Source: Clostridiales bacterium (lineage in GTDB: Bacteria; Bacillota; Clostridia; Oscillospirales; UBA644). From it: DNA of 64,000 bases. The notes under the pieces were generated by a model. That model saw nothing but the letters and a program-made list of their open reading frames with translations, was not told where the DNA came from and ran no database searches. This document shows, piece by piece, positions 27,059 to 58,727 of the stretch. Where the stretch lies: contig JAEEJO010000077.1 in assembly GCA_016281915.1 (NCBI GenBank), positions 191,508 through 255,507 on the forward strand. Direction: 5' to 3'. Every line of letters starts with the position of its first letter. The first letter of the stretch is position 1. The translations under genes were made by a program, and so were the position numbers.

Positions 27059-30000
27059 CTATTGATTATCAAGTATACCTTCTCCGCCGGGTTTTTCCAT
27101 GATTATTCTCCAGTCGGAATCATCGGATGTTTTAATCATATAGATCTCGATAGATGATGATTCTGTGGTGTAAATAAGCCATTGGTCTTCAGAGGCCTCG
27201 ATCGAAACCTCCGCTACGACGCAGACGTATGCTGCAGGAGATTTATACCATGGGTCATACCAGTCGTAGTCGGATGGAACCTCTGCGCATGATTTCACTG
27301 AAATTTTCGTCAGTTTGTCAAAAGCGAATTCCTCATCGCTTTTAGCATACGTTTCATAGACTAAACTGTTGGCCTTTTCGGCATCTTTTTCATTCAGGTA
27401 TTCGAAATATTTGAACAGTGTTTCTGTCGGAGTAAGTCCTGCGGGAGGAGCAAAAGATTGCGCTGCATCGTCTCCTGAGTGTTCGGAATCATCGCCTTCG
27501 TCTGCCTTGCCGTTATTATCCTGAACTTCTGGTTGCAAAGCAGGATTTTCAGGAGTCTCCTCACCATTTTCGCCATTGACGGGTTTTACGGCAGACAATA
27601 TTGCAAATGAACCGTCTTCGTTTTTTGTTAAATTATATACAAGAGTGTCTGTGCAGTAGAGGCAAAGAGGATCTGCATACCATTTATAAGTAACTGATGC
27701 GTCACCCGCTTCGTTGAATTCAAGAGACGATACGCGTTTATATCTTGTCGGAGAACTTATGCCTTCATACGAATACATTTTTGTTTCGCTATTGTATGCG
27801 GCAATATCATGCGCCACATATTTATCGGCTGCAAAATATTTTTTTGCGGCAGAATTCATCTCATCGTCACTGATCAGAAACAGTGACGGATTCTCTGAAG
27901 AAACTTCTCCTATACCGTCTTTACGGCAATTCATCATCAGATATGCTGCAATTGCTGAGCTGTTGCTGAAGTCCTCAATCGATTCAAATGTAATTCCGGC
28001 TGCGTCGACCCAGGAAGTAAAGCTGTCGACAGCAGCAACGGCGGAACTTGACAGATTAACTGTATTGTATTCTTCAAGCGGAATAAACGAGGTCACTGAC
28101 AGTGATCCGCCTGATGAGCTTACAGTGAGGACGTAGTCTTTAATTCCCTTTTCAAACGGGGAATCGACGGGATCTTCAACATTAAGACGTACTGTATACT
28201 GCCCGTTTCCGTCAGAACTCTCAATCGACAAATAATTGAGCATAAGCGTTTTTATTCCGCTGTAATCAAATGAAGAATTACCTGTAAGCCTGTTGATTGT
28301 ATCTATATCACCTGTTCGTAACGATTCACAGAAAAGCGCCGCCGCAGTGTCAGAAGATTTTGCGTTAACTTCCATAATGCCCTTTACAATGTCGGAATAC
28401 GACGATGAACAAAGGAACCAACGGTCGATATATTTTCCCTTTGAGTAGAACGTACCTGAAACATTCACAACAGCCTGTCCCGATTCGAGAGGATAGAAGG
28501 TCATCAAAAACTTTTCGGAGCCTTTGAAAAGGATTTCGGTTTTTTCGGGGGAAATTATGTCCGGAACTGACTCAGAAGGCAATAGATCTACGGCGGCAAG
28601 AACGTCAATTGCGTCTTCTGAATCTTCACTGTATTTTTCTCTGAATGAGTATTTATCAGTAACCGTAATATCCACACCTTCGGATTTCTTTTGCAGAGCG
28701 CCAAGTTCTGTTGCTGAAACAGTCCATGATTCCGTATAAAGATTATCCTGAATATAGGTGATCAAAGCAGATGAAACTGCAGACGGAATGCGATACACTT
28801 TATTGTCTCCCCCGCTGATAACAATGGCGGAGTTTTTTGAGGGATAAATGCTTATTGAAAGTGCTGGAAGCTTATTCAGTTCAAAAACGATGTCAGGTTC
28901 GCCTATTAGTTCAAGAACGGGGCTCTCCGTCCATGAAGAAATGCCGAGTGCAGACAGAAGATCAGATTGAACGGAAACTATGTATTGGTTCCCTTTATAC
29001 TGAACGGGAATCTGTTTTTTCTCGGAAATGGAGTTTGAAATCGATGTTTTTAAAACAGATATCGTCTCGGGGCTTTCGCTATCGCCTTTAAGTAATTCGG
29101 TTATAGAAGAAAAGACTGTTGACGGTACAGAATAGTATACGTTTTCAAATTCCGCCACAGAGTATGCCGAATAAAGACTGACAGTAACGGATTTTCCGCC
29201 ATTTATAAAGATATCGCCCTTGTCAGGTAATCCCGCCGGTGCGGTAAAACGGCGTTCCCAATTTGTAACATCAAGAAGGATATCAAGAGACGTATCCGGG
29301 GAAAGATTATATTCTTCTCCGCCTTTTGTAACCTTTATGCCTTCTCCGTCGGATATTTTACCGTCAAAAAGAGATGAAACATCGTTAAAATATGATTTTG
29401 CAACAAGCTCAGAACTTGCAACGGAGAGTTCGTTGACGGAATAAACGGTGTTTGTGCCGCTGTATTCTATTACGCCGATATTGATCGATTTATAGACATT
29501 GATTTTCAGCCCGGTTTTTGTATCGACAATAACTGTCGGTTCAAAATCGGGGTAGACAGAATCGCTTTCAGTCCACTCGGACATATTCAACGCAGATGCA
29601 AGCTGTGCGCCGGAAGGGACTGTTTTTGAGGAACCGAGTACTGTAACCGTAACATTATCGGATGCGGCGAGAAACGACGAAGCGTCCGCAGGTGAAATAA
29701 ATGTATTATCATATAAATAAGCAGTAACGATAGGCAAAATATCTGAAGGCACGGAATAATATCTTACCTTATCGTCATACTGAATCCGCGCTACTTCATT
29801 GTCACCAAGAGACATTGTATAACCGTCGTCTATGCTTAACGCCAATGAATCATGGAACGTATTATTATAATCAGGCAGATACTTCCAGTCTTTAATCTTC
29901 AGCAAATCAAGAACAAGTTCTTTTTGTGTGATGATGATTTTTTTATCTTCAAATGTGCCTGTCAGTGCGTCCTTCTGCATCAATACGCCCAGAGCGACAT

Positions 30001-30139
30001 CTTTGTTCAGTTCACTGTCATCATCTTTGTTTTTCATGTTAAGGTAAACAGACAGTCCAACTATCAGGGCTGTAAGAATCACAGCGACAGCCACAACACT
30101 GGCTATCTGACCGAACGACACAGGCTTTGATGTTTTCAT
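27059..30139 (-). CDS. Large membrane-anchored repeat protein with NTF2-like C-terminus, unknown function
   Basis: 1026 residues. A short basic N-terminus and one transmembrane helix (about 12-33) anchor a large extracellular part. I see at least four divergent tandem repeats of about 105 residues, each with a conserved Trp (85, 189, 294, 403) followed 42-46 residues later by a Tyr-x-(Val/Ile)-Pro/Asn-Ser-like motif (YSVPS 128, YSVNE 233, YSVPS 336, YRIPS 449); a fifth may follow (FYSKG 564). Between about 605 and 860 comes another extracellular region, then an acidic linker (880-915), and a C-terminal NTF2/DUF4829-like domain starting TPTETLFKYFEYLNEKDAEKA. No enzyme motif. The neighbour upstream is another membrane-anchored protein. 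Function unknown. Confidence 0.75.
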   Translation of the reverse strand: MKTSKPVSFGQIASVVAVAVILTALIVGLSVYLNMKNKDDDSELNKDVALGVLMQKDALTGTFEDKKIIITQKELVLDLLKIKDWKYLPDYNNTFHDSLALSIDDGYTMSLGDNEVARIQYDDKVRYYSVPSDILPIVTAYLYDNTFISPADASSFLAASDNVTVTVLGSSKTVPSGAQLASALNMSEWTESDSVYPDFEPTVIVDTKTGLKINVYKSINIGVIEYSGTNTVYSVNELSVASSELVAKSYFNDVSSLFDGKISDGEGIKVTKGGEEYNLSPDTSLDILLDVTNWERRFTAPAGLPDKGDIFINGGKSVTVSLYSAYSVAEFENVYYSVPSTVFSSITELLKGDSESPETISVLKTSISNSISEKKQIPVQYKGNQYIVSVQSDLLSALGISSWTESPVLELIGEPDIVFELNKLPALSISIYPSKNSAIVISGGDNKVYRIPSAVSSALITYIQDNLYTESWTVSATELGALQKKSEGVDITVTDKYSFREKYSEDSEDAIDVLAAVDLLPSESVPDIISPEKTEILFKGSEKFLMTFYPLESGQAVVNVSGTFYSKGKYIDRWFLCSSSYSDIVKGIMEVNAKSSDTAAALFCESLRTGDIDTINRLTGNSSFDYSGIKTLMLNYLSIESSDGNGQYTVRLNVEDPVDSPFEKGIKDYVLTVSSSGGSLSVTSFIPLEEYNTVNLSSSAVAAVDSFTSWVDAAGITFESIEDFSNSSAIAAYLMMNCRKDGIGEVSSENPSLFLISDDEMNSAAKKYFAADKYVAHDIAAYNSETKMYSYEGISSPTRYKRVSSLEFNEAGDASVTYKWYADPLCLYCTDTLVYNLTKNEDGSFAILSAVKPVNGENGEETPENPALQPEVQDNNGKADEGDDSEHSGDDAAQSFAPPAGLTPTETLFKYFEYLNEKDAEKANSLVYETYAKSDEEFAFDKLTKISVKSCAEVPSDYDWYDPWYKSPAAYVCVVAEVSIEASEDQWLIYTTESSSIEIYMIKTSDDSDWRIIMEKPGGEGILDNQ

Positions 30140-30160
30140 AATAGTATCTCCGGGAATGAC

Positions 30161-30880
30161 TTATCCGAACATGGTTTTAATATCTGAGTATTCAGGGGCT
30201 TTCCAGTAAACGACGTCTCCGTAAACTATATCTCTTGAGACTACTGCCATTATCTTATCGTCATCGTAGAACGCTGCGCTGTATCTGAAAACCGCGCCGC
30301 CCTCTTCATTCAACTCCGTAACGGAATCAATAAAATCCGAAACGGATGCAGCCAGATTATCGGCATCGGTATTTATTTCAAGATACAATGCGGGCTGTTC
30401 CATGCCAATAGTGTCGTAAAACCCTATGTAGCGGCAGTCGTATCCTTTTTTTCTGAGGTCATACTTGATAAAAAACTTCTTCATAACCTCATCACGGTCT
30501 CCGCCGGTATACTGAACGATTATTTGCTCAGAAGAAGTGTAAATATTGTAAAAGAGCGTTGAATATACGGTTTTTCCTGACGGGGAAACAAGCGAAACAT
30601 TGTATATATTCTGATCAAAAACTGCACAGCGAAGCGCGTTGAGTAGCTTCCTGATATTCATGATGTCGTTAGCGGTTACCTGTTCGCCGTCTGAATTAAT
30701 TGAAAGATAAACGGTGTCTCGGGCATAGGATGTCTCGCGAACAACAATTCCGTATTCGGAGAGTTTTCCGCGAACATATGCGTCTCTTTTCTCGATCTCT
30801 GACTCGCAGAAGGAAAATGCAAGCCATCCTGCAAGACATACGATCACAATAAGATAAAGAAATGCTTTTATAAATCTCAC
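30161..30880 (-). CDS. Single-pass membrane-anchored protein of unknown function
   Basis: 239 residues if translation starts at the GTG at 30880. It has one N-terminal helix (about residues 4-23, FLYLIVIVCLAGWLAFSFC) and an extracellular alpha/beta region of two similar-sized halves. I recognise no family. The start is chosen because GGGGTG lies just upstream, and because an earlier in-frame GTG (30913) lies upstream of the promoter's -10 box and so cannot be on the transcript. It is 21 nt upstream of the large repeat-protein gene, so the two extracellular proteins are probably partners. Confidence 0.65.
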   Translation of the reverse strand: MRFIKAFLYLIVIVCLAGWLAFSFCESEIEKRDAYVRGKLSEYGIVVRETSYARDTVYLSINSDGEQVTANDIMNIRKLLNALRCAVFDQNIYNVSLVSPSGKTVYSTLFYNIYTSSEQIIVQYTGGDRDEVMKKFFIKYDLRKKGYDCRYIGFYDTIGMEQPALYLEINTDADNLAASVSDFIDSVTELNEEGGAVFRYSAAFYDDDKIMAVVSRDIVYGDVVYWKAPEYSDIKTMFG

Positions 30881-30903
30881 ACCGTCACCCCATATCTTTT
30901 GTA

Positions 30904-30932
30904 ATTTTATCACAATAATACAATTTAGTCAA
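30904..30932 (-). promoter_or_regulatory. Sigma-A promoter of the repeat-protein/GH38/DegV unit
   Basis: Minus strand TTGACT, 17-nt spacer, TAAAAT. The -10 box ends about 24 nt before the GTG start at 30880, implying a very short leader that just contains the GGGGTG ribosome binding site. It diverges from the antiporter promoter 80 bp away. Confidence 0.7.
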
Positions 30933-31013
30933 GACTTTTGTTTAAAAAAGAGCAACTGATGCGCGCATTTATTTACAAAATCAAATTCCGAAACATGAAG
31001 ATAGCAGCGGATA

Positions 31014-31042
31014 TTGACATTTAACCGAAAAAAGAGTATAAT
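31014..31042 (+). promoter_or_regulatory. Sigma-A promoter of the antiporter operon
   Basis: Full consensus: TTGACA, 17-nt spacer, TATAAT. The leader to the first ATG is about 125 nt; I saw no clear riboswitch or strong hairpin in it. Confidence 0.88.
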
Positions 31043-31173
31043 TCAAGAGATATACAAAAATATTCCAAGGCTACTTATCATATATCTTGCCAATAAAATG
31101 CACCTTCTGATCAATAATCACTGAAAATGATTTATAAGCTCCGTTTGAACTATTCCCAAAGTGAGGTATTTGT

Positions 31174-31440
31174 ATGGAGATACTGAAATTCATACTTCTT
31201 TGTCTTCTTGTGATCTGCGCCGTATCTGTCAGCGTCACAAAGAATCTTCTTTCATCTGTAATTATTTTCATGTCATACAGCGGAATCATGGCCCTTGTAT
31301 GGATGCTTTTGCTTTCTCCAGATCTTGCGATTACCGAGGCGGCTGTGGGAGCGGGAATCAGCAGTATTTTATTCTTTGTTACGCTCAAAAAACTTGGCTT
31401 GCTTTCAGGAGGCTCGAACGATGGCAAGAATAAGAGATAA
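31174..31440 (+). CDS. MbhD-like (DUF4040) subunit of Mrp-type antiporter
   Basis: 88-residue membrane protein with three hydrophobic helices, matching the MbhD/DUF4040 module that in classical MrpA is fused to the C-terminus. Motif LSPDLAITEAAVGAGISSILF near residue 47 is the family's signature with acidic residues inside the membrane segment. GAGG lies 8 nt before the ATG. It overlaps the next gene by 20 nt. As a free-standing subunit it resembles the layout of membrane-bound hydrogenases and archaeal Mrp complexes rather than the Bacillus operon. Confidence 0.85.
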   Translation: MEILKFILLCLLVICAVSVSVTKNLLSSVIIFMSYSGIMALVWMLLLSPDLAITEAAVGAGISSILFFVTLKKLGLLSGGSNDGKNKR

Positions 31441-32362
31441 TTATGAGCGATCTGCAGCATACAGAGCGGAAAAGGTGATCAAAGGTGAGGCTGAACCTCT
31501 TGACTTCCTTCCGGAAGAAGATCGCACGACAGAGGATAAGCTGACGATAGAGAAAACAGTAAAAGAATCCGAATCAGAACTGTCTCTTTCACCTGAAACA
31601 CTTACAGAAACGGTAGAATTCAAATTATACAGCAGAATTTACAAAGCTTTATCCGTTGTTGTTTGCATAATTTTTATAACTTCACTCGTCATAACAGCTA
31701 TTCATCTGCCGAGTCTCGGAAGCGATTTAAACCCTGCAAACAACGAGGTCCCTGAAAGGTATGTTGAAAAAGGTGTTGAAGAGACCGGGGCTATCAATAC
31801 TGTTGCAGGAATGATTCTTGATTACAGAGCTTTTGACACGTTTGGAGAATCGTGTGTTCTTTTTGCAGCAGTAATCTGTGTTCTGATTCTTCTGAAGGAA
31901 TCCGATCTGTCAGCCGCAGAGCACAGCGACAGGCAGAACGAACCTAAAAACGACGGGATACTGAAAGCAGCTGCGTCCATCCTCTTTCCGGTTATAATTA
32001 TTTTCGGATTTTACGTAATACTTAACGGTCATCTTTCTGCCGGAGGAGGTTTTTCGGGTGGAGCGATTCTCGGATCGGGAATGATTCTATATCTGCTTGC
32101 TTTCGGATTTGAAAAAGCGCATAAACTGTTTAACTACAAAACGTTTGCCGTTACTGTTTGTTCAGCGCAGATCTTTTACTGTATAGCAAAAGGGTTCTCG
32201 TTTTTTACGGGCGCAAATGAAATCGAAACTCATATACCCCTCGGCAATCCCGGCGACATCCTGTCAAGCGGACTGATTCTTCCCCTGAATATCTGCGTTG
32301 GTCTCGTTGTTGCATACACAATATACACCTTTTATGTAATGTTCCGTCGAGGAGGTTTTTGA
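31421..32362 (+). CDS. mnhB: MnhB-type antiporter subunit with N-terminal MbhE-like domain
   Basis: 313-residue membrane protein. After a hydrophilic, acidic N-terminus (residues 1-65) comes a helix, then an MbhE-like stretch (TVAGMILDYRAFDTFGE near 127, followed by a helix), a charged linker, and the MnhB domain with ILNGHLSAGGGFSGGAILG near 204. This fuses the last module of classical MrpA to MrpB. Start is the ATG at 31421, which has GGAGG 8 nt upstream; the longer frame lacks support. The stop abuts the mnhC ATG. The long acidic N-terminal extension is unusual. Confidence 0.87.
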   Translation: MARIRDNYERSAAYRAEKVIKGEAEPLDFLPEEDRTTEDKLTIEKTVKESESELSLSPETLTETVEFKLYSRIYKALSVVVCIIFITSLVITAIHLPSLGSDLNPANNEVPERYVEKGVEETGAINTVAGMILDYRAFDTFGESCVLFAAVICVLILLKESDLSAAEHSDRQNEPKNDGILKAAASILFPVIIIFGFYVILNGHLSAGGGFSGGAILGSGMILYLLAFGFEKAHKLFNYKTFAVTVCSAQIFYCIAKGFSFFTGANEIETHIPLGNPGDILSSGLILPLNICVGLVVAYTIYTFYVMFRRGGF

Positions 32363-32734
32363 ATGGGATTGATTTCAAATTACGAAGAAGTATTTGCCGT
32401 TATCCTTTTCGGTATAGGGTTTTCAAATCTTTTATTCAACCGAAATCTTTTAAAAAAAATAATCGGATTCAATATCATGGATTCCGGCGTATATCTGTTT
32501 CTGGCTTCTATGGGATATATAGACGGCAGGATGGCGCCAATCATAACAGACGGAATAACAGATGCCGAAGCATATATCAACCCTGTTCCGTCAGGGCTTG
32601 TCCTGACAGGTATAGTTGTTTCGGTATCAGTTACGGCAATGATGCTTGCCTTAACGATCCGCCTTTACAGGAGATATAATACTTTGAATCTGGATGAGAT
32701 TTATATGTTTGCTTCAAGGGAGACAAAGAAATGA
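32363..32734 (+). CDS. mnhC: Na+(cation)/H+ antiporter subunit MnhC
   Basis: NuoK-like small membrane subunit of 123 residues with three helices. The N-terminus (FAVILFGIGFSNLLFNRNLLKKIIGFNIM) matches the MnhC/NuoK family, and PVPSGLVLTGIVVSVSVTA near residue 73 is its characteristic third helix. It would sit between the antiporter-like subunits and the small core subunits. Starts directly after mnhB and overlaps the next gene by 4 nt (ATGA). Confidence 0.92.
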   Translation: MGLISNYEEVFAVILFGIGFSNLLFNRNLLKKIIGFNIMDSGVYLFLASMGYIDGRMAPIITDGITDAEAYINPVPSGLVLTGIVVSVSVTAMMLALTIRLYRRYNTLNLDEIYMFASRETKK

Positions 32735-34236
32735 TGCTCTGGTGGCAAAATCTTCCCTTTTTATCAATTTTTTTAATGATTCTTTCGTCAATCGTCTCTC
32801 TGTCACTGTCATTCAAAGCAGCAAGGAATATATGCGTTATATCTCTCGGAACGGTTTTAACAATGTCAGTTATAACGTTTTGCGGCGTATACGTCAGTAA
32901 AGAATCTTTTGTTTACAAAATGGGACACTTCCCTGCTCCATGGGGAAATGAGATAAGATCAGGTCTGTTGGAACCGTTTCTTGCTTCGATTTTTGCCATT
33001 ATAATGCTTTTGGCTGTTTTAGGCGGAATGAAGCACATAAGGAATGATATAGAATCAAAAAAGCTGAACCTGTATTTTCTTACCACAGATCTCCTGTTTG
33101 CGTCGATACTCGCCCTTATTTACACTAACGACATATTTACCGGATATGTTTTTCTGGAAATCTGCACGATAACAACATGCGGTATCCTCATGATTCGTCA
33201 GATCGGCAGAACTACGCTTGCAGCCGTAAGATATATGATAATAAGCCTGCTTGGATCGGGTATATTCCTAATCGGAATAACGCTTATGTACGATATTTCA
33301 GGCTATCTGCTTATGGAAAATATGCGAGAAGGTATTGCAAAAGCGATCGAAACAGACGGAATGACATTACCTACGGTTATGTCTATAGTTCTTGTATCGC
33401 TTGGTCTGTCTATAAAGTGCGGTCTTTTTCCATTTCATTTCTGGATGTCTGATACATATGGTTACGCAACACCCTCGTCAAGCGCGATATTATCCGGAAT
33501 AGTATCAAAAGGATATATCATCCTCCTCCTTAAAATATATTATCGGGTTATTGGAATAGAAACCGTGGCTCAGAGTCATATTCAGGATATACTCTTTGTA
33601 TTCGGACTTGCAGGAATAATCGTTGGTTCCGTAAACGCAATAAGGGAAAACGATATTTTCAGGATGATAGCTTTTTCTTCAGCTGCACAGATAGGATATA
33701 TTTTTGTAGGTTTCAGTTTAGGAACTCAAGCGGGTTTTACTGCTGCTGTATTTCAGATATTATCTCATGCCGTTACTAAGCCGTTACTTTTTATTTCCGC
33801 TTCCATGCTTTCGGACGCATCCGGAGGAAGCAAAAAATTTTCCGACCTTATGGGCTCTGCTCTCAGGTCGAAGATAGCGGGGATCGGTTTTACGGCTGGC
33901 GCGCTGTCGATGGTAGGAATTCCGTTCCTGTCAGGTTTTGTTACTAAAATACTGATCGGCACGGCATCGTTCGAGTCACCTTCAAAAATGATGCCTATAT
34001 TGGTCGTTCTTGCAATTAGCACGGTATTGAACGCCGTTTACTATCTCAGGACAGTGGTGCGTATATATCACCCGAGAGATCTGAACAAAAAAGAGCCCAA
34101 ATATTCAAACGACGGTTACTCTTCCTCTGTGTTTTCTGCCGTGATAGTTTGCTTTGTTGCGCTCAATCTTTCGATCGGATTCTTTTCGGACTTTGTTACG
34201 GATATCATTCGAACCGGACTTTCCATGTTAGCATAG
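32731..34236 (+). CDS. Antiporter-like subunit 1 (MnhD/NuoN family)
   Basis: 501-residue proton-conducting membrane transporter family protein with about 14 helices. Residues known to be essential in the family are present: glutamate in VFLEICTIT near residue 147 (helix 5), lysine in LSIKCGLFPFHFW near 228 (helix 7), lysine in LSGIVSKGYI near 259 (helix 8) and lysine in FLSGFVTKILIG near 400 (helix 12). It is therefore likely a functional proton or cation channel half. First of four such subunits in a row. Confidence 0.88.
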   Translation: MMLWWQNLPFLSIFLMILSSIVSLSLSFKAARNICVISLGTVLTMSVITFCGVYVSKESFVYKMGHFPAPWGNEIRSGLLEPFLASIFAIIMLLAVLGGMKHIRNDIESKKLNLYFLTTDLLFASILALIYTNDIFTGYVFLEICTITTCGILMIRQIGRTTLAAVRYMIISLLGSGIFLIGITLMYDISGYLLMENMREGIAKAIETDGMTLPTVMSIVLVSLGLSIKCGLFPFHFWMSDTYGYATPSSSAILSGIVSKGYIILLLKIYYRVIGIETVAQSHIQDILFVFGLAGIIVGSVNAIRENDIFRMIAFSSAAQIGYIFVGFSLGTQAGFTAAVFQILSHAVTKPLLFISASMLSDASGGSKKFSDLMGSALRSKIAGIGFTAGALSMVGIPFLSGFVTKILIGTASFESPSKMMPILVVLAISTVLNAVYYLRTVVRIYHPRDLNKKEPKYSNDGYSSSVFSAVIVCFVALNLSIGFFSDFVTDIIRTGLSMLA

Positions 34237-34260
34237 AATAAAACTGTAAGGGAGAAGAAT

Positions 34261-35715
34261 ATGCTTTTTATTCCTTTTCTTGTTCCCGTTATTTCGGGAA
34301 TAATACTTATCATTACAAAAAACATGCCTCGCAAACCAAGATGCTATTTCGTTTTGTTCGTTCTTGCGGCAACGCTGGCATCCAGTATTGCTTCTGCTTT
34401 TTTAAACGAACAGTTCACATTGCTCTCTTTAGGTGATCTGCTGCAGATATCTTTTGCAACAGATACTTTAGCAAGGATATTTTCTGTTCTGGCGTCTTCC
34501 GTCTTTCTTATTTGCGGTATTTTTGCATTTGATTATATGAAGGGAGAAAGGAGCGAAAGCACATTTTTCGGCTTCTTTGTAATAGTGCTAGGGGTTTTGA
34601 ATGCTCTTGCCTATGCTTCAAATCTTATTACGATGTACCTGTGCTTTGAATTCGTAACTCTTGTATCTGTTCCGCTTGTTTTGCATAATATGGATAAAAA
34701 GGCGATAAACGCCGGTTTGAAATACCTGTTCTACTCAATCGTAGGTGCATTTATAGGTCTTTTCGGAATCATAATAATATACGGCTATTCTTCGGGAGTT
34801 TTTATTGCGGGAGGCAATATAGGCGAATCATCATTGAATGAAAACAGCGGTCTCCTTCTAGTGGGAATAGTTCTTACCGTCATCGGTTTCGGAACAAAGG
34901 CAGGTATGTTCCCGATGCACGCTTGGCTCACTTCAGCTCACCCGGCAGCGCCCTCCCCCGCTTCGGCTGTTCTTTCAGGACTGATTGCCAAAGCAGGTAT
35001 TATTGCTGTTATAAGGATTATTTACTTTGTTGCAGGTCCGTCACTGATTCGTGGAACATGGGTGCAATTCGCATGGTCTTCGATCGCGCTTCTGACGGTT
35101 CTTATGGGGTCTGTACTTGCTTTTACGGAAAAACAGTTAAAAAAGAGACTTGCATTTTCATCGATAAGTCAGATTTCATATATCATGCTTGGTTTATCTA
35201 TGCTTACCCCTGATGCTCTTACAGGTTCCGTATTGCACATGATATTCCATGCAGCTATAAAAAGCGGCCTGTTTCTTGCGGCAGGAGCTATTATCAAACA
35301 AACCGGCACTACATACACAGACGGGATTAACGGCATAGGCAAAAAAATGCCCTATACCGTAATGTGCTGGACGTTTTACTCTCTCGCTCTGATCGGAATT
35401 CCGCCGTTTTCGGGATTTGTCAGCAAATGGTATCTTGCCATTGGCTCATTGAATTCAGGATTAAGTATCATCAACTGGCTTGCGCCTGCAATTCTTTTGA
35501 TTTCAGCAGCTCTAACCGCGGGATATCTCTTGCCTCTGATAATCAACGGTTATTTCCATTCCGGCAGCGATAATGAATCAATTTATGAACGAAACGAGGC
35601 TTCTAAACTTATGGTTGCGCCTATGGCTGTTCTTGCCGTCGCCGTACTTATGCTTGGTTTATGCTCTTCGTATTTAATTGAAATTATAACAGAGATCACG
35701 GGGGCCGCTTTGTGA
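34261..35715 (+). CDS. Antiporter-like subunit 2 (MnhD family)
   Basis: 484 residues, about 14 helices. Key residues: glutamate in LCFEFVTLVS near residue 129, lysine in GFGTKAGMFPMHAWL near 208, lysine in LSGLIAKAGIIA near 240, lysine in PPFSGFVSKWYLA near 385. GGGAG lies before the ATG. The gap of 24 nt from subunit 1 is the largest within this cluster. Closest by eye to MnhD/HyfB-like proteins. Overlaps the next gene. Confidence 0.88.
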   Translation: MLFIPFLVPVISGIILIITKNMPRKPRCYFVLFVLAATLASSIASAFLNEQFTLLSLGDLLQISFATDTLARIFSVLASSVFLICGIFAFDYMKGERSESTFFGFFVIVLGVLNALAYASNLITMYLCFEFVTLVSVPLVLHNMDKKAINAGLKYLFYSIVGAFIGLFGIIIIYGYSSGVFIAGGNIGESSLNENSGLLLVGIVLTVIGFGTKAGMFPMHAWLTSAHPAAPSPASAVLSGLIAKAGIIAVIRIIYFVAGPSLIRGTWVQFAWSSIALLTVLMGSVLAFTEKQLKKRLAFSSISQISYIMLGLSMLTPDALTGSVLHMIFHAAIKSGLFLAAGAIIKQTGTTYTDGINGIGKKMPYTVMCWTFYSLALIGIPPFSGFVSKWYLAIGSLNSGLSIINWLAPAILLISAALTAGYLLPLIINGYFHSGSDNESIYERNEASKLMVAPMAVLAVAVLMLGLCSSYLIEIITEITGAAL

Positions 35716-37178
35716 TGCCTTCTGTATTTCTGTTAATTATCGTTTTGTTTCCGATATTCAGTGCGGCACTGATACCAGTTTTCAGGCTCGGAAATGGATC
35801 AAAACTCAAAATATACGTTTTTGCAGTTACGGCGTTAACTTCATTGTCAGTCCTTTCCCTTTTTGTTTTTAAGCCGGTAAGCAATCTTGTTTTGAAAGTT
35901 ATTTTCGCAGACGTTTCCCCGGGTATAAGCTTTTCTCTTGGATTTGACGGAGCTTCGGCCGTTTTTTCAGTAATGATCGCAATCCTCTGGCCTCTTGCTT
36001 CCCTATATTCGTTTGAGTATATGAAGGACGAGAGATTTCATACGCTGTTTTACGTCTTTTATACTGCCACGTATGGCGTAACGCTTGGAATAGCTCTGTC
36101 TGCAAATCTGTTTACGCTGTATATATTTTACGAGTTTCTCACTATATCCACCCTTCCGCTTGTAATGCACGGATTCAACGATAAATCCATCAGAGCCGGA
36201 CGCAAATATATGTATTATTCTCTGGGCGGCGCTGCGTTTGCGTTTATCGGCCTGTTGTATGTGATCAATTATGCCGGATCTACGGATTTTGTCCTTGGCG
36301 GTATTTTTAAAGGAGAGGTTCCTCCGTTTTTTGAAACGGTATATCTTCTGACGTTTATGGGATTCGGTGTTAAAGCAGCCGTATTTCCGCTTCACGACTG
36401 GCTGCCCTCCGCCTCTGTTGCACCTACACCGGTTACCGCGCTCCTGCATGCCGTTGCCGTTGTTAAATCAGGAGCCTTTGCAATAATTAGAATGACCTAT
36501 TATTGCTTCGGAACACAGATGCTCGAAGGATCATGGGCTCAATATACCGTTATAGGAATTTCTCTTTTTACTGTTCTCATGGGTTCAGTATTGGCATTAA
36601 AAGAAAGCCATTTTAAACGCAGGCTCGCCTATTCAACCGTCGGTAATCTTTCTTATATTCTTTTCGCCGCATCTCTGATGACTCCCGAGGGGCTTTTGGC
36701 TGCATTCATTCATATGCTCGCTCACGGTATAACAAAATCTCTCGGTTTTTTTGCGGCGGGAGCAATTATGAAAAAGACAGGAAAAGAATATGTTTATGAC
36801 CTTGACGGACTATATAAATCAATGCCTTTTACCTGTATTTGTTACTGCGTTTCAGCTGTTTCTCTTGTCGGTATTCCGCCTTTTGCTTGCTTTATAAGTA
36901 AGTGGAACATTTGTTTAGCTGCTTTACATTCAAACAGTGTGGCAGGTTATCTCGGAATGGCTGTGATTATTATATCTGCAATGCTGACAGGCTTTTATAT
37001 GTTCACTCCTGCGATAAGAATGTTCAGTCAACAAAAAAATAATGCACAAACAAATGTTTGTGACCCTCAATATACAATTAAAATCACTCTCGCATTACTC
37101 GCCTTCTCAACATTTATATTCGGTATTCTTGCATCACCAATTACTTCAGGCTTAAATCAATTGATCTTCGGAGCATAA
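35712..37178 (+). CDS. Antiporter-like subunit 3 (MnhD family)
   Basis: 488 residues, about 14 helices. Key residues: glutamate in IFYEFLTIS near residue 138, lysine in GFGVKAAVFPLHDWL near 218, lysine in AVAVVKSGAFA near 250 and lysine in PPFACFISKWNI near 395. Start is either the GTG at 35712 or the ATG at 35715; both overlap the preceding stop, so translation is coupled. The active-site helix 8 reads LLHAVAVVKSG, a variant typical of MbhH-like subunits, unlike LSGxxxK of its neighbours. Confidence 0.87.
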   Translation: MMPSVFLLIIVLFPIFSAALIPVFRLGNGSKLKIYVFAVTALTSLSVLSLFVFKPVSNLVLKVIFADVSPGISFSLGFDGASAVFSVMIAILWPLASLYSFEYMKDERFHTLFYVFYTATYGVTLGIALSANLFTLYIFYEFLTISTLPLVMHGFNDKSIRAGRKYMYYSLGGAAFAFIGLLYVINYAGSTDFVLGGIFKGEVPPFFETVYLLTFMGFGVKAAVFPLHDWLPSASVAPTPVTALLHAVAVVKSGAFAIIRMTYYCFGTQMLEGSWAQYTVIGISLFTVLMGSVLALKESHFKRRLAYSTVGNLSYILFAASLMTPEGLLAAFIHMLAHGITKSLGFFAAGAIMKKTGKEYVYDLDGLYKSMPFTCICYCVSAVSLVGIPPFACFISKWNICLAALHSNSVAGYLGMAVIIISAMLTGFYMFTPAIRMFSQQKNNAQTNVCDPQYTIKITLALLAFSTFIFGILASPITSGLNQLIFGA

Positions 37179-37183
37179 TTGAA

Positions 37184-39394
37184 ATGAACGGATCACATTT
37201 ATCTTTTATGACAGAACAGTTTACTGCATTTTGCGTATACGCCGCAGTCTTTTTTCCGTTTATTGCTGCCATTGTTTCAGTGATTTTGGAAAAAATAAGT
37301 AAAAAAGCTCGTTCTCTGTTTATCATTTCGGCTTCCGCACTTGAAGTGATAATCTCCTTTTTGTTGCTTTTTTCACAGACCGAAACCGCCTTTACAATTC
37401 CCTATGTACTGATTTTCGGTCTGAAATTCGAGCTGAACGGATTTAACAACATTTTTATTATAATAACCGCAATTATGTGGTTTGCAACATCTTTATTTTC
37501 AAATGAATATTTTGCTCACTACAAAAGTACTAACAGATTCTTTTTCTTCTATCTTTTAACCTTAGGTGCTGTTTGCGGAGTATTTCTGTCGGCAGACTTT
37601 ATGACGCTGTTTGTGTTTTTTGAGATAATGTCCTTTACTTCTTACGTATGGGTTGCTCACGATGAAACAAACAATGCTCTTAAAGCAGCGGAAACCTATC
37701 TTGCGGTTTCGGTAATCGGCGGACTTTCAATACTTATGGGAATGTTTCTTATTTATTCCGAAGCAAACACTCTTGATTTCAATGCGCTTGAAAACTTCTT
37801 TGACGACGGAGTAAACGGAACGACTATAGCCGCGGGACTTTGTATGCTTGCTGGGTTCGGAGCAAAGGCTGGTATGTTTCCGCTTCACATATGGTTGCCC
37901 AAAGCGCATCCCGTGGCGCCTGCCCCCTCCTCGGCATTGCTTTCAGGCATACTGACGAAAACAGGGGTATACGGAATTCTTATTATTACCGCGAAAATAT
38001 TTTATCGTAATTCATTCTGGGGCAGTTTGATACTGACACTCGGGGTCATAACAATGATAATCGGAGCATTGCTTGCACTGCTCTCTATCGATCTTAAAAG
38101 AACTCTTGCGTGTTCGTCTATGTCTCAGATAGGCTTCATTCTTATAGGCACCGGCGTTTTCGGACTGGGCGGAAAAGGCGCAATAATAGCGATTTGCGGT
38201 GTTGTTTTACATATTATAAATCACGCAATGTTCAAACTTCTTCTGTTTACAGCTGCCGGTACTGTTTATATGAATACGCATAAGCTGAACCTTAATGAAA
38301 TTCGCGGCTTCGGTAATAATAAACCTTTTTTTGCAGTTTTGTTTTCAATCGGTTCGCTGGGAATAAGCGGTATTCCTCTTTTAGGCGGATATGTCAGCAA
38401 AACCGTTCTTCACGAAAGTATTTCGGAATTATCAGCAGCAACAGCCTTTCCTCTTTACGTTAAAATAACGGAATACCTTTTTATTTTTGCAGGAGGACTT
38501 ACGTTTTCCTACATGATCAAGCTGTTTACGGCAATCTTTATTGATAAAAGCAGCAATGGCATTACCGATAAACGTTATATGAGTGCGATAACGGCGACAT
38601 CAATGCTGATACCTTCAGCTGTAATTGTTGTTTCGGGCATATTGGGTAACTTTTACGTACGGTATATTCAGGATACGATATCGTCATTTTTCGGCATTTC
38701 AGTTTCGGAACACAGCATCAATGTTTTCTCTGCCGAAGCACTGATCAGTGCGTTGATCTCTCTCGTAACGGGACTGTCAATATATCTACTTGTCGTTCGT
38801 CGGTTTATGATAAGAAAAGTCAATTCAGATGAAACACAGTATATTGATCTTTTGCCGGAAAAAGTAGATCTGGAAACAATGATTTACAGGCCCTTGATAT
38901 CGCTGATAATCCAAGCTATGTCTGCAGTACTCGGTCTATTCAATATTTTAACGGACACCGTAACAGCATTTTTCTTCAGGTCCGGAATTATCAGCAGAAT
39001 ATTATCTGTTTTCAATTCTTTTACCGACGCCGTTGTGCTGTTTTTCAGCAAAACCGGATTTATCAGGTATTTTTTCAACATTATAAATTCAGTTACCGAT
39101 TACATTGTGCTGGCGTTAAGAAAAACTGTTTTCAGAAAATCCAAACCGAAAGCAGAGCTTAACGCAAATGAAAGGGCGAGTTATTCAATCGGGGCATTTC
39201 TTGACAGGATATACGCATTTTTTAATAAAGGTGTGGACACCAGAAAGAAAACCTTTGCACAAACGGCAGTTCAGCTAAGAACAGTTAATTTTGAAGTAAA
39301 CAGAATGATTGGAAAAACGTTTTCTTTTGCTTTGATAATGACATGTCTTGGAATATGCACCGCGATAGTATATATTTTGATTACAGTATTCTAA
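37184..39394 (+). CDS. Antiporter-like subunit 4 with extended repeat-bearing C-terminus
   Basis: 736 residues. The first ~510 form a NuoL/MnhA-like transporter core with the conserved glutamate in VFFEIMSFTSYVW near 145, lysine in GFGAKAGMFPLHIWL near 226, lysine in LSGILTKTGVYG near 259 and lysine in LGGYVSKTVLHE near 405. The C-terminal ~220 residues carry three tandem 24-residue amphipathic repeats (586-609, 610-633, 634-657) with the pattern (F/I)NxxTDxxVxxFF, then a charged stretch and a final helix (708-733). In NuoL the C-terminal extension is a lateral helix that clamps neighbouring subunits; a similar brace is plausible but inferred. Last transporter gene of the cluster. Confidence 0.87.
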   Translation: MNGSHLSFMTEQFTAFCVYAAVFFPFIAAIVSVILEKISKKARSLFIISASALEVIISFLLLFSQTETAFTIPYVLIFGLKFELNGFNNIFIIITAIMWFATSLFSNEYFAHYKSTNRFFFFYLLTLGAVCGVFLSADFMTLFVFFEIMSFTSYVWVAHDETNNALKAAETYLAVSVIGGLSILMGMFLIYSEANTLDFNALENFFDDGVNGTTIAAGLCMLAGFGAKAGMFPLHIWLPKAHPVAPAPSSALLSGILTKTGVYGILIITAKIFYRNSFWGSLILTLGVITMIIGALLALLSIDLKRTLACSSMSQIGFILIGTGVFGLGGKGAIIAICGVVLHIINHAMFKLLLFTAAGTVYMNTHKLNLNEIRGFGNNKPFFAVLFSIGSLGISGIPLLGGYVSKTVLHESISELSAATAFPLYVKITEYLFIFAGGLTFSYMIKLFTAIFIDKSSNGITDKRYMSAITATSMLIPSAVIVVSGILGNFYVRYIQDTISSFFGISVSEHSINVFSAEALISALISLVTGLSIYLLVVRRFMIRKVNSDETQYIDLLPEKVDLETMIYRPLISLIIQAMSAVLGLFNILTDTVTAFFFRSGIISRILSVFNSFTDAVVLFFSKTGFIRYFFNIINSVTDYIVLALRKTVFRKSKPKAELNANERASYSIGAFLDRIYAFFNKGVDTRKKTFAQTAVQLRTVNFEVNRMIGKTFSFALIMTCLGICTAIVYILITVF

Positions 39395-39408
39395 AAACGG
39401 AGGTAATT

Positions 39409-40636
39409 ATGGCGGAATTCAATCAAACAGATTTTATAAAGAAATTTTATTTCACGCGACAGGCAGGAAGTGACGGCGAACACAGAGCTGCAAAAATAAT
39501 TGCAGAAACTATCGTGTCTATGGGCGGAGATAGTTCGTACGAAGAATTTGATATCAATTACTTTAATATTGAAAAAGCCTCACTGACAGTCCATTCTAAA
39601 GGAAAAGATCATAGCAATGAAGTGACAGGATACGGCAGAACGGGTTCCACACCAATTAACGGTATAACAGCGCCGTTTGTTTATGCCGGAACAGGAAGCG
39701 AAACGGAGCTTGAAGGATGTGAAGGGAAAATTGTTTTCGTAAATGCCGTTCATCATGATATTTACAGAAGGATGATCGATAAAAAAATCGCGGGTTTCAT
39801 AACTTTTGACGGTTCTGTTTCGGACGACAGAACGAAAACAGACCTGAATACTCGCTCGATCAAAGAAAAAACAGCTGAATTCGGATCACTTCCCGGAATT
39901 ACCATGCGTTCGGCAGATGCAGTTAAAATGATAAAATCCAACCCGGGAGAGTGTGACGATCGAGCTGAAACAAAATAATACTGTCTTGCATTCAGGTAAT
40001 ATAGTTGCTGATATAAAAGGTATAAAAGATAAAGAAAAAATGCTCTTTACCGCGCATTATGACAGCACCATGTTTTCGAAAGGTGCGTGGGATAATGCAT
40101 CGGGATGCGCAAATCTGATGTCTCTTTATTCTTATTTCATTAAAAACAAGCCCGACAGAAGCATACGTTTTATCTGGTGCGGCGGTGAAGAACTCGGACT
40201 GAAAGGCAGCAGGGCATATGTTGAGAGACATATGCAGGAACTTGACGATTTTTCTCTCGGCATAAACATCGATATGACCGGAACAGTGATAGGAAATGAT
40301 ATAGCATGCGTTACAGGGGACGATTCGATTAAATCTTATCTGCAGTATTGCGCATCTGAAGCAGCATTTCCCGTATCCGTTTCATCCGGAATTTTTCCGA
40401 GCGATTCTTCTTCATTTGCATACGCAGGCGTTCCGTTTATCGTATTTCAAAGAGGAGGCCAGGGCGGAATGCATACGCGAAACGACAGGATAGATTTTCT
40501 TTCGGAAAGATCACTTAGAAATACGACAGAATTTATAAGGTTTGTATCACAGCGTCTTTTGAATTCAAAGCGATTCCCTGTTCCCAGAACAATTCCGGAG
40601 AGAATTCGGGAAGAGCTGGAAAATTATTTCCGATAA
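39409..40636 (+). pseudogene. M28 family aminopeptidase, interrupted by a single-base frameshift
   Basis: Zinc-dependent peptidase of the M28 family, about 409 residues if read as one protein. Part 1 (39409-39978) holds the N-terminal and PA-like inserted domain; part 2 (frame from 39953) holds the catalytic core: HYDS, DNASGC, CGGEELGLKGSR, DMTG and MHTRND, all metal and catalytic positions present. Part 1 reads SNPGE then departs into a short tail, while part 2 continues VTIELKQN, as expected of one uninterrupted protein. One extra T at about 39952 explains the break. It has a perfect RBS (GGAGG) and follows the antiporter by 14 nt. Either a real inactivating mutation or a sequencing/assembly error. 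Confidence 0.8.
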
Positions 40637-40640
40637 AAAT

Positions 40641-40665
40641 ACGTGGACATATTACATGTCCACGT
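40641..40665. terminator. Bidirectional intrinsic terminator
   Basis: Perfect 10-bp stem (ACGTGGACAT with ATGTCCACGT, 5-nt loop) followed by an A/T-rich tract, between the M28 gene and the convergent Nudix gene. Confidence 0.8.
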
Positions 40666-40673
40666 TAATTATT

Positions 40674-41123
40674 TTATTGAACGGTTAATGGTGAATCAAA
40701 AGAATCTGTCCATTCCGCAAAAAGCTCTATCGGCTTTTCTGAAAAGAAAGCAGGCAGATAAACGTCAAAACTCGGGGAAAGTTTCATTTTGTATAAATCA
40801 TCTGTTTTAGTCCAGAACACCCTGCCCTCTTCTGTTCCATCTGAAAGCGTCCCAGAATAGTCGTTTGTCTTAAAAAGATATTCCACATATCTTTCATCAG
40901 AGTTCTTTTTTGCCCAGTTAACGATCCCGCACAAGACAGGATTCCTGATTTTCAGACCCGTCTCTTCAAACGCCTCTCGGATCGCACATGCTGTAAAACT
41001 TTCACCTTGTTCAACATGCCCTCCAGGAAAGCATATACCGGGATATTTTTTCAGTCTGTCAATCACCACGACCTCACCGGCAGTGGTATTTTCAATCATA
41101 ATCATTGTAGTTAGTTCATGCAT
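40674..41123 (-). CDS. Nudix hydrolase (MutT-like)
   Basis: 149-residue nucleotide diphosphate hydrolase. Full Nudix box is present as GGHVEQGESFTACAIREAFEETGL (G-x5-E-x7-R-E-U-x-E-E-x-G-U) near residue 35. Resembles YtkD/MutT-type 8-oxo-dGTP diphosphatases but substrate is not certain. Starts 0 nt after the VanY-like gene stop, so the two are co-transcribed with the solute-binding gene further upstream. Confidence 0.9.
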   Translation of the reverse strand: MHELTTMIMIENTTAGEVVVIDRLKKYPGICFPGGHVEQGESFTACAIREAFEETGLKIRNPVLCGIVNWAKKNSDERYVEYLFKTNDYSGTLSDGTEEGRVFWTKTDDLYKMKLSPSFDVYLPAFFSEKPIELFAEWTDSFDSPLTVQ

Positions 41124-42380
41124 TTACTGGTTCTGATCTCCGTATTGCTCTATAAATTCTTCAAAACATATTCCTTCAGACATAATAAATGATGCATATT
41201 CAACGCCGACGTAACGATAGTGCCAGGGTTCAAATATGATTTTAGTAATCTCTGTTTTGTCTTCAGGATAACGCAGAATAAATCCGTATTTTGCTGCGTT
41301 AGCTTTCAGCCATTTTGCCGCATCCGTTTTTGCATAACCTGAATTCAGCCTCTGATAAGACGGAGTAACTATATCCATTGCCAGTCCCGTGTGATGCTCG
41401 CTTGTTCCCGGAACAGCAACTATTGTTGCAGCAACTATCGGTGCTTCCTCTTTGGAATATCCTTCGTCTATTAGGTCATTGATTTTGTTATTGAAAAGAC
41501 GGGTCTGAAGATCTATATCACGAATTGATGAGCAGATCTGAAGATCTATACCCTCTTTTTTAGCATCTGCGATCATTTGTATTGCATATGGCGCAACACG
41601 GCTGTCAAGATAATAATTGCCTTGAACCTGCATTTTATCGATTACAAAGCCGTCAGGAAGGAAATGATCGGGATTTACAAGTATAAGGTTCCACAACGAA
41701 GTGTCAACCTTAGTTGTTCCGTCAAAATAAGCTGTTTCATCCTGTGGTTCATCTTCGAAAAGAGGTTCTGCTTCGCTGTTTTGCGTTTCTTCATTTGATT
41801 CAGAAGAAACAGAAGATTCAGCAGATGTTGATTTCGTCAAAGATGCTTCTTCGGATACATCGTTGTTTTCTGTTACTTCCGGATCATTGTTTTCCGCTTG
41901 TTCTACATTGTTATTTGATGCAGCAGAATCTGTTTGAGGAACAGACGATTCAGCAGATGTTGATTTCGTCAAAGATGCTTCTTCGGATACATCGTTGTTT
42001 TCTGTTACTTCCGGATCATTGTTTTCCGCTTGTTCTACATTGTTATTTGATGCAGCAGAATCTGTTTGAGGAACAGACGATTCCGCAGTCTGAGATTCTT
42101 CGGCGCTTTGTATCTCTTCTTTGATCTCAGGTTCTTCCGGCTTCAACGCATCTTCCGCAACAGTTTCGGAAGATAAATTTTGATTTTGACTTTCCGTTGT
42201 CAGCAGTAATTGATCGTTTTTGCTTTCGGAAGAGTTTGAAGAAACAGACGATTCCTGCGTATCAGGTTCTGATGTATCAACAACTGTATTAGCGGATGAA
42301 CATGAGACAAATACAAGTAAAGAAACACCCAGAACGATACAAAGTATACCCAATAACGGAATTACTATATTCTTCTTCAT
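41124..42380 (-). CDS. VanY-type D-alanyl-D-alanine carboxypeptidase lipoprotein
   Basis: 418-residue secreted zinc peptidase (family M15B). A signal sequence with a lipobox-like end (LLVFVSC, Cys near 27) is followed by a long Ser/Glu/Asn/Thr-rich, acidic linker (about 28-215) and the catalytic domain. Zinc motif SEHHTGLAMD (SxHxxGxAxD) near residue 328 and EPWHYRYVG near 386 (ExWH) are intact; SSIRDIDLQTRLF supplies the conserved arginine. The linker contains two exact copies of a 44-residue unit (see repeat). It would trim the fifth residue of peptidoglycan stems at the cell surface. 24 nt downstream of the solute-binding lipoprotein gene. Confidence 0.9.
   Translation of the reverse strand: MKKNIVIPLLGILCIVLGVSLLVFVSCSSANTVVDTSEPDTQESSVSSNSSESKNDQLLLTTESQNQNLSSETVAEDALKPEEPEIKEEIQSAEESQTAESSVPQTDSAASNNNVEQAENNDPEVTENNDVSEEASLTKSTSAESSVPQTDSAASNNNVEQAENNDPEVTENNDVSEEASLTKSTSAESSVSSESNEETQNSEAEPLFEDEPQDETAYFDGTTKVDTSLWNLILVNPDHFLPDGFVIDKMQVQGNYYLDSRVAPYAIQMIADAKKEGIDLQICSSIRDIDLQTRLFNNKINDLIDEGYSKEEAPIVAATIVAVPGTSEHHTGLAMDIVTPSYQRLNSGYAKTDAAKWLKANAAKYGFILRYPEDKTEITKIIFEPWHYRYVGVEYASFIMSEGICFEEFIEQYGDQNQ
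41815..42078. repeat. Exact 132-bp tandem duplication in the VanY linker
   Basis: Two adjacent, apparently identical 132-bp (44-codon) units starting at 41815 and 41947, in frame, encoding the acidic Ser/Asn/Glu-rich linker. A third, diverged edge (GATTCCGCAG) begins right after. Confidence 0.92.
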
Positions 42381-57606: not shown

Positions 57607-58104
57607 ATGACGCTTTTAATTTTTATAATATGGATAATTTTAAACGGGAAGATCAATGCAGAGATCATCCTATTCGGAATCGGCATTTCTTTACTGATTT
57701 TCATTTTTGCTAACAGGTTCCTGTCATTGACGGTAAAGAAAGAATTATGGATTTACAGAAATTATTTCCTGTTTTCCGCATTCTTACTGATTGTTTTAAG
57801 GGATATTTTTATAGCAAATTATAAGGTCATATCATTTGTTATTTCTCCAAAAAAAGAAGCTGTTCCCGCTATTGTAACCTTTAAAACAAGCCTGAAGCTT
57901 AACTTTATTCGCGCACTTCTTGCAAACTCGATCACCATAACGCCCGGGACTATCACCGTTTCGCTTGATAACGATACTTTTACAGTGCATTGTCTGGATG
58001 AAGAACTGACAAAAGATCTTGAAGACAGCACAGCAAAAAAAATCTTATCAAAAATAGAAGCTACATACCCCTACCCTGACATTAAAGAGGACCACAATGG
58101 ATAA
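57607..58104 (+). CDS. mnhE: Na+(cation)/H+ antiporter subunit MnhE
   Basis: 165 residues with two to three N-terminal hydrophobic helices and a soluble C-terminal part. The stretch LLANSITITPGTITVSLDNDTFTVHCLD near residue 104 is the MnhE signature. It overlaps mnhF by 8 nt. No good ribosome binding site is seen. With F and G it forms a separate half of the Mrp complex; the B, C and transporter genes are at 31-39 kb. Confidence 0.93.
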   Translation: MTLLIFIIWIILNGKINAEIILFGIGISLLIFIFANRFLSLTVKKELWIYRNYFLFSAFLLIVLRDIFIANYKVISFVISPKKEAVPAIVTFKTSLKLNFIRALLANSITITPGTITVSLDNDTFTVHCLDEELTKDLEDSTAKKILSKIEATYPYPDIKEDHNG

Positions 58105-58408
58105 AACGATTGTTTGTATAATAGCACTTTGTTTTTTTTCACTTTGTCTGTTGATCAACCTTCTGCGAGCCATCTTTGCGCACTCAGCTGCAGACAAACT
58201 TATTTCGATCAACATGTCAGGGACCGTAGTAATATGTTCAACGGCAATTCTTACCGTGTTGCTTGATGAACCCTGGCTTGCCGACATCTGTATTCTTTAC
58301 GCCCTTCTCAGTTTTATAGCCGTAATAGTAATAACAAAAATATATATAGGCGCATCAATAGACAAGGAACAGAAAGAAAAAGAGGAAAAAACAGATGGAG
58401 ACCGTTAA
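58097..58408 (+). CDS. mnhF: Na+(cation)/H+ antiporter subunit MnhF
   Basis: 103 residues, three hydrophobic helices, with the family's helix pair around INLLRAIFAHSAADKLISINMSGT and DICILYALLSFIAVIVITK. C-terminal Lys/Glu-rich tail. It overlaps mnhE by 8 nt and mnhG by 14 nt, as expected of a tightly coupled operon. Confidence 0.9.
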   Translation: MDKTIVCIIALCFFSLCLLINLLRAIFAHSAADKLISINMSGTVVICSTAILTVLLDEPWLADICILYALLSFIAVIVITKIYIGASIDKEQKEKEEKTDGDR

Positions 58409-58727
58409 AATAATTATTGCATCCGTTTTAACTTTTATAGGCCTTGCGCTTGAAGCGACAGCGATTATAGGTGTTTTTAAATTTAAGGATACGCTTAGCA
58501 GAATGCATTCAGCAGGAATTGCAGACACTCTCGGAATTCTGTTTATTTCCGCCGGAATGATCCTCCTTTCTGATTTTGCGGGATTCTCTGTAAAGTTTAT
58601 TATAGCAGCCGTATTTGTTTGCTGTTCAGCGCCTGTATCCTCTCATATGATAGCAAAAATGGTTTATAACGATAAAAATAAATCATATAAGACCGAAACA
58701 AATACCAATAATAAAGAACAGGAGTAA
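58395..58727 (+). CDS. mnhG: Na+(cation)/H+ antiporter subunit MnhG
   Basis: 110 residues, three helices, motif FKFKDTLSRMHSAGIADTLGI near residue 28 is the classical MnhG/PhaG signature with the conserved Arg-Met-His. C-terminal hydrophilic tail. 5 nt before the GH29 gene, so the antiporter trio and glycosidases share a transcript. Confidence 0.94.
   Translation: METVKIIIASVLTFIGLALEATAIIGVFKFKDTLSRMHSAGIADTLGILFISAGMILLSDFAGFSVKFIIAAVFVCCSAPVSSHMIAKMVYNDKNKSYKTETNTNNKEQE

Follow-up and report, generated by a model that had tools for sequence, protein, structure and literature searches.

The window analyzed here is a stretch of 64,000 nucleotides from a Clostridiales bacterium (GTDB lineage Bacillota, Clostridia, Oscillospirales, UBA644; assembly GCA_016281915.1, contig JAEEJO010000077.1, positions 191,508–255,507 of the forward strand), and all positions below are counted from its first letter. 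It carries, on the plus strand, an operon for an expanded Mrp-type antiporter. The first gene (31174–31440) encodes MbhD, an 88-residue counterpart of the C-terminal piece of MrpA with the cation-path residue Glu55 (PF13244, E = 5e-18). It is followed by a fusion of MbhE and MnhB with an N-terminal cytosolic stretch (31421–32362; PF20501 and PF04039); because an AGGAGG motif lies at 31408, the start of the fusion is most likely the ATG at 31421, which gives a protein of about 313 residues and not the 355 residues of the full open frame. Next come the MrpC/NuoK-like MnhC (123 residues, 32363–32734; PF00420) and 4 large antiporter-like subunits of the PF00361 family, which we designate D1 (501 residues, 32731–34236, adjoining MnhC), D2 (484 residues, 34261–35715), D3 (488 residues, 35712–37178), and D4 (736 residues, 37184–39394). 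The open reading frames and the Pfam matches agree in this gene content with a preliminary description made from the sequence alone. In our interpretation, the locus very probably encodes a secondary Na+(K+)/H+ antiporter of the Mrp type (CPA3, group 3) that stands alone and whose proton arm is lengthened.

The preliminary description overlooked 3 further Mrp subunits within the window. MnhE (165 residues, 57607–58104; PF01899, E = 1e-29), MnhF (103 residues, 58097–58408; PF04066), and MnhG (110 residues, 58395–58727; PF03334, E = 2e-19) form a cassette (57607–58727) in the same orientation, separated from the main operon by 18 kb on its downstream side and placed between polysaccharide deacetylase and alpha-L-fucosidase genes. 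With this cassette the Mrp subunit set is complete, that is to say, classes A to G are all present, class A being represented by MbhD, MbhE, and the NuoL/MrpA-like D4. A search of the genome with MrpF gave a single match, which lies inside the window. In the examined relatives with sufficient flanking sequence, the E-F-G genes stand directly upstream of MbhD and are contiguous with it; the split was seen in this genome only. The usual one-operon Mrp layout, which the mechanism of Mrp antiporters does not require, is therefore found in the relatives and is absent here. The complete set in an irregular order or copy number places the system in Mrp group 3, as this group and its irregular clusters with 2 D genes have been defined (PMC5703873).

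The 4 large subunits were compared residue by residue. The glutamate of transmembrane helix (TMH) 5 and the lysines of TMH7, TMH8, and TMH12, which are Glu143, Lys229, Lys260, and Lys406 in D1, are invariant among the 4 paralogs. Together with the His/Lys pair before TMH12, they are also invariant among the orthologs of D1 (84 sequences), D2 (67 sequences), and D4 (73 sequences), and D3 (72 sequences) keeps the same residues with a single exception, an Asn in place of the TMH8 lysine. The proton-path Glu and Lys residues are thus intact in 295 of the 296 sequences, and the earlier statement that all 4 subunits retain them holds for the relatives as well. D3 carries in addition, within its LLHAVAVVK motif, the extra TMH8 histidine that is typical of MrpA and NuoL (PMC7419157). 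From these residues, all 4 large subunits look active. The extra subunits might instead be redundant structural spacers or residual paralogs without proton transport of their own, and one of them is indeed a duplicate, D2 and D3 being sister paralogs (see below); the retention of the Glu, Lys, and His residues in every subunit, despite a mean identity of only 55%–63% inside each D group, makes this explanation highly improbable.

A maximum-likelihood tree of 94 sequences was calculated with a quick search and with Shimodaira–Hasegawa-like approximate likelihood ratio test (SH-aLRT) values only. D1, D2, D3, and D4 each form a clade of their own (SH-aLRT 97–100), D2 and D3 are sisters (99), and D4 joins the D4-type proteins of other clusters (98). 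Since D2 and D3 are sisters, the four-subunit form arose most simply by duplication of a middle subunit. In this tree, none of the D clades groups with NuoL, NuoM, or NuoN of Escherichia coli, with HyfD or HyfF, with MbhH or MbsH of Pyrococcus, or with classical MrpA or MrpD, and the long HyfB branch attaches only at the base. The deep branches are weak, the references from E. coli and Pyrococcus are partial or sit on long branches, and the 2 Pyrococcus references (MbhH and MbsH) were copied from a printed alignment. Subject to the weak deep branches and the long-branched E. coli references, the tree rejects an assignment of the D subunits to complex I or hydrogenase-4.

The divergence of D1 to D4 co-varies over 60 loci (r = 0.79–0.90; permutation gave at most 0.28). 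A single unit passed on as a whole would show this pattern, but so would common ancestry alone. An alternative is that 2 complexes share the operon, for example, a D1–D4 antiporter and a separate unit containing D2 and D3. Such a division is very unlikely. Two-subunit clusters composed of D1 and a D4-type subunit do exist alone (L141, L142, and L143), whereas the locus has a single set of MnhC, MnhE to MnhG, and MbhD, and D2 and D3 never occur without D1 and D4 in close relatives of sufficient length; the correlated divergence also points against the division, with the reservation just given.

D4 differs from D1 to D3 in a long C-terminal extension resembling a lateral helix. In an AlphaFold model of D4 (38 sequences, mean predicted local distance difference test score 82.5), the antiporter core is followed by a helix (residues 517–542), low-confidence helices up to residue 680, and a last helix (residues 691–735); the confidence is low at residues 584–632. 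In Foldseek, MrpA (7qru_A and 6z16_A) and NuoL-type chains aligned with the whole of D4, whereas MrpD and MbhH covered only its first ~500 residues. The full-length match indicates that the architecture of D4 resembles that of the subunit bearing the lateral helix, though by sequence D4 is neither MrpA nor NuoL. The tails past the TMH12 lysine motif measure 336–392 residues in two-subunit clusters, 374 residues in a three-subunit cluster, 304 residues (median) in four-subunit clusters, and 249–263 residues in a five-subunit cluster. These lengths reject the idea that the D4 extension is a clamp whose length scales with the number of subunits.

The landmarks of the Mrp cation path, namely MrpF Asp35, MrpG Pro86, MrpE Pro114, and MrpA Glu706 (MbhD Glu69) (PMC7419157), have conserved equivalents in MnhF Asp33, a proline of MnhG, the proline of the MnhE TPGT motif, and MbhD Glu55. 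Alignment puts the MbhD glutamate roughly one helix turn away from MrpA Glu706, and at least 95% of 80 relatives retain this glutamate. By contrast, in the alignment MnhC reads Asp40-Ser-Gly-Val-Tyr where classical MrpC has Ser/Thr-His-Gly/Ala-Val/Ala-His, that is to say, His37 and His40 are replaced by Ser and Tyr, and Asp40 occupies the classical Ser36 position next to the lost His37. At least 95% of 82 relatives retain the Met-Asp pair of MnhC, and several other clusters of the same type have Glu at the Asp position. The membrane-bound hydrogenase MBH likewise has no His40 (PMC7419157). We infer that a carboxylate ligand replaces the MnhC histidines, and Asp40 is possibly a group-specific cation site.

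Is the lengthened arm attached to a redox module? The preliminary description had suggested coupling to an unseen redox or hydrogenase module, and no such module came to light. The genome (2.18 Mb, ~96% complete) has exactly 4 matches to PF00361, all of them D1 to D4, and no match to Complex1_49kDa (PF00346), a model that matched 11 of 14 control genomes. The PF00346 model also finds the large subunits of group 4 hydrogenases. Therefore, this search detected in the genome no large subunit of complex I or of a group 4 hydrogenase. No hydrogenase gene lies beside the operon, no genome-wide search having been made for a NuoH-like anchor, and clustering of the flanking genes of 61–63 loci revealed no recurrent redox complex; the flanking genes that do recur are TrmB/carboxypeptidase genes and, in 10 loci, thioredoxin genes. 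The missing large subunits and the absence of a recurrent redox neighbor argue for a stand-alone Mrp.

These results bear on the alternative in which the four-subunit arm serves as the ion module for a complex driven by redox chemistry (a hydrogenase, or an oxidoreductase of ferredoxin or NADH), with the soluble part encoded elsewhere. Separate MbhD and MbhE are typical of Mbh-type complexes, and 2 loci of relatives in the phylum (L030 and L153) pair E-F-G and MbhD with one large subunit and with NuoH-like, HyfG/HyfI-like, and ferredoxin-like genes; these 2 loci are probably Mbh-type hydrogenases or related complexes. Such hydrogenase-linked clusters, however, have one large subunit and sit elsewhere in the tree, and together with the genome searches and the flank clustering they leave a redox-driven complex very improbable for the present locus.

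The same genome contains Rnf and a V/A-type ATPase, whose two-hairpin K subunit carries the motifs LPATQ, YQG, and VETF; in NtpK of Enterococcus, these motifs make up the site that binds Na+. In a cell so equipped, a Na+/H+ exchanger would couple the sodium circuit to the proton circuit. Given Rnf and the presumably NtpK-like ATPase, the complex might operate mostly in reverse, using an Rnf-generated Na+ gradient to build up a proton gradient, or balancing the 2 gradients, in the service of fermentation. Direction is unreadable from sequence, and this possibility, which we regard as rather unlikely, is compatible with the stand-alone antiporter and differs from it in direction alone.

An ortholog scan with D1 over 84,980 species genomes gave at least 578 confirmed relatives, from which the best 80 loci were kept. 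They are mostly from Lachnospiraceae (Hungatella hathewayi, Eisenbergiella porci, and Fusibacillus), with a few from Butyricicoccus, Oscillospiraceae, and other Clostridia; as best D1 matches, they represent the near relatives, and more distant clusters are unsampled. The full order E-F-G-MbhD-EB-C-D1-D2-D3-D4 (EB being the fusion) was found in 61 loci, and open reading frame calls gave all 4 D subunits in 70. An apparent loss of D3 in 2 more loci (L077 and L085) was rejected, as tblastn finds D3 in both beneath an over-long D4 call. The remaining 8 loci are cut by a contig end, so that D1-D2-D3-D4 is present in all 72 loci of sufficient length. Among 10 further loci from the window's own order with an uncut D region, 2–3 of which overlap the first set, 9 have 4 subunits, with D4 broken into 2 frames in one of them, and one has 3 (L167). 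In L036, D4 appears as 2 overlapping frames of 266 and 475 residues.

Within the window's own order, a D1 ortholog occurs in 22 of 295 genomes, this genome included, and the operon occurs in 0 of 9 genomes of the window's genus. No gene outside the operon was found in common between the window and 4 relative loci. This patchy distribution and the unshared flanks fit horizontal spread or repeated loss. The preliminary description had named 2 outcomes that would refute it: some of the subunits might belong to a separate complex, which apparently they do not, and the layout might be routine in relatives, which it is. In the literature covered, which leaves out most subscription journals, we came upon neither an account of a stand-alone Mrp with 4 large subunits nor a study of one in gut Lachnospiraceae. 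The four-subunit Mrp thus appears to be an already widespread, under-described variant of group 3 and not a new type of machine.

Clusters with other subunit numbers were examined in 101 genomes of the phylum, in which multi-subunit clusters were chosen by eye and serve as examples and not as frequencies. Of the stand-alone clusters obtained, the two-subunit L141–L143 consist of D1 and a D4-type subunit; the three-subunit cluster L152 has D1, a D2-type, and a D4-type subunit, and L149–L151 have a D1-like, a D3-type, and a different third subunit; the five-subunit cluster L139 (G114:C1:2648000-2667000) has D1, a D2-like subunit, and 3 closely related D4-type subunits. Whether a cluster has 2, 3, or 5 large subunits, ends of the D1 and D4 types are seen again, and it is the middle that varies. 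In L139, one D4-type copy lies upstream of MnhE.

Structural and gene-content comparison with known systems revealed that (i) classical Mrp/Mnh/Pha antiporters (CPA3; Anoxybacillus 6z16 and Bacillus pseudofirmus 7qru) share with the present system the E, F, G, B, C, and antiporter-like classes, the proton-path residues, and the lack of a redox arm, and differ in having 2 large subunits instead of 4, an MrpA that is not split into MbhD and the MbhE-MnhB fusion, both MrpC histidines without the Asp at the neighboring Ser36 position, and E-F-G that is not displaced; (ii) other group 3 Mrps (cyanobacterial CDCDEFGBB and Microbacterium FGBCDDAE; PMC5703873) are likewise stand-alone, of irregular order, and with duplicated D, but have 2 D genes in place of 4 distinct ortholog groups in fixed order; (iii) 2M complex I, the rhizobial green complex I, and Complex_I_3 of Manganitrophaceae, expanded forms with 4 or 5 pumping subunits, likewise lengthen the membrane arm with extra antiporter-like subunits but are redox-driven, whereas no redox module was found here, and the added subunit of 2M complex I and of Complex_I_3 comes with a lateral-helix insert (26 residues in Complex_I_3), unlike the unscaled D4 (PMC9040806); and (iv) Pyrococcus Mbh and MBS (6cfw and 6u8y) also have MbhD and MbhE as free pieces, and MbhH is the top PDB match of all 4 D profiles, but they have 1 or 2 large subunits, and the hydrogenase or sulfur-reductase module is missing here.

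In the proposed mechanism, MnhE-F-G, MbhD, the MbhE-MnhB fusion, and MnhC would form the cation module, through which cations probably pass along MnhF Asp33, MbhD Glu55, and the MnhC carboxylate (Asp40). At Glu143 of D1, which would sit against MnhC, the cations would couple to the row of antiporter-like subunits; D2 and D3 would be the middle modules derived from gene duplication, and D4, with its NuoL/MrpA-like C-terminal extension, probably caps the row. The analysis shows which genes are present, that their key residues are conserved, how the subunits are related, that they are inherited together, and that a redox arm is absent; the physical order of the subunits, the identity of the cation, the direction of transport, and the possible gain of one proton per cation with each added subunit are proposals. 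Three observations weigh against it: both cation-coordinating MrpC histidines of the Anoxybacillus Mrp are absent, so the cation site differs; the E-F-G genes lie outside the main transcript in this genome; and the D4 extension does not lengthen with more subunits, which weakens a simple clamp model.

The stand-alone Mrps of Bacillota may tentatively be viewed as a natural length series, with 2, 3, 4, or 5 active subunits on one cation module, in which each addition might allow more protons to be exchanged for every cation. If so, the four-subunit form, which is common in gut Lachnospiraceae, would hold a steep sodium gradient there at a low proton-motive force. The number of protons per antiporter-like subunit and the spread of motion along the row pose an open question of central importance to complex I, Mrp, and membrane hydrogenases. 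The known arms with 4 or 5 pumps, those of complex I, are tied to redox chemistry; a natural stand-alone antiporter with 2 to 5 subunits would permit the H+/cation ratio to be related to the channel number without electron transfer.

Candidate transcription signals flank the operon. A sigma-70-type promoter (TTGACA-17-TATAAT, 31014–31042, plus strand), recognized by a 12/12 consensus match only, lies 130 bp before mbhD and is the sole such site within 30000–41500. A terminator-like hairpin (40641–40665, readable on both strands) with a stem of 10–11 pairs and a T-rich tail, also a consensus match only, follows the downstream M28 peptidase frames and is likely the end of the transcript. The M28 peptidase gene 3' of D4 consists of 2 overlapping frames (39343–39978 and 39953–40636), which suggests either a frameshift or an arrangement as 2 genes. 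Further downstream, 41124–42380 resembles a D-alanyl-D-alanine carboxypeptidase lipoprotein, in which a Ser/Glu-rich stretch of more than 40 residues is duplicated (AESSVPQTDSAASNNNVEQAENNDPEVTENNDVSEEASLTKST).

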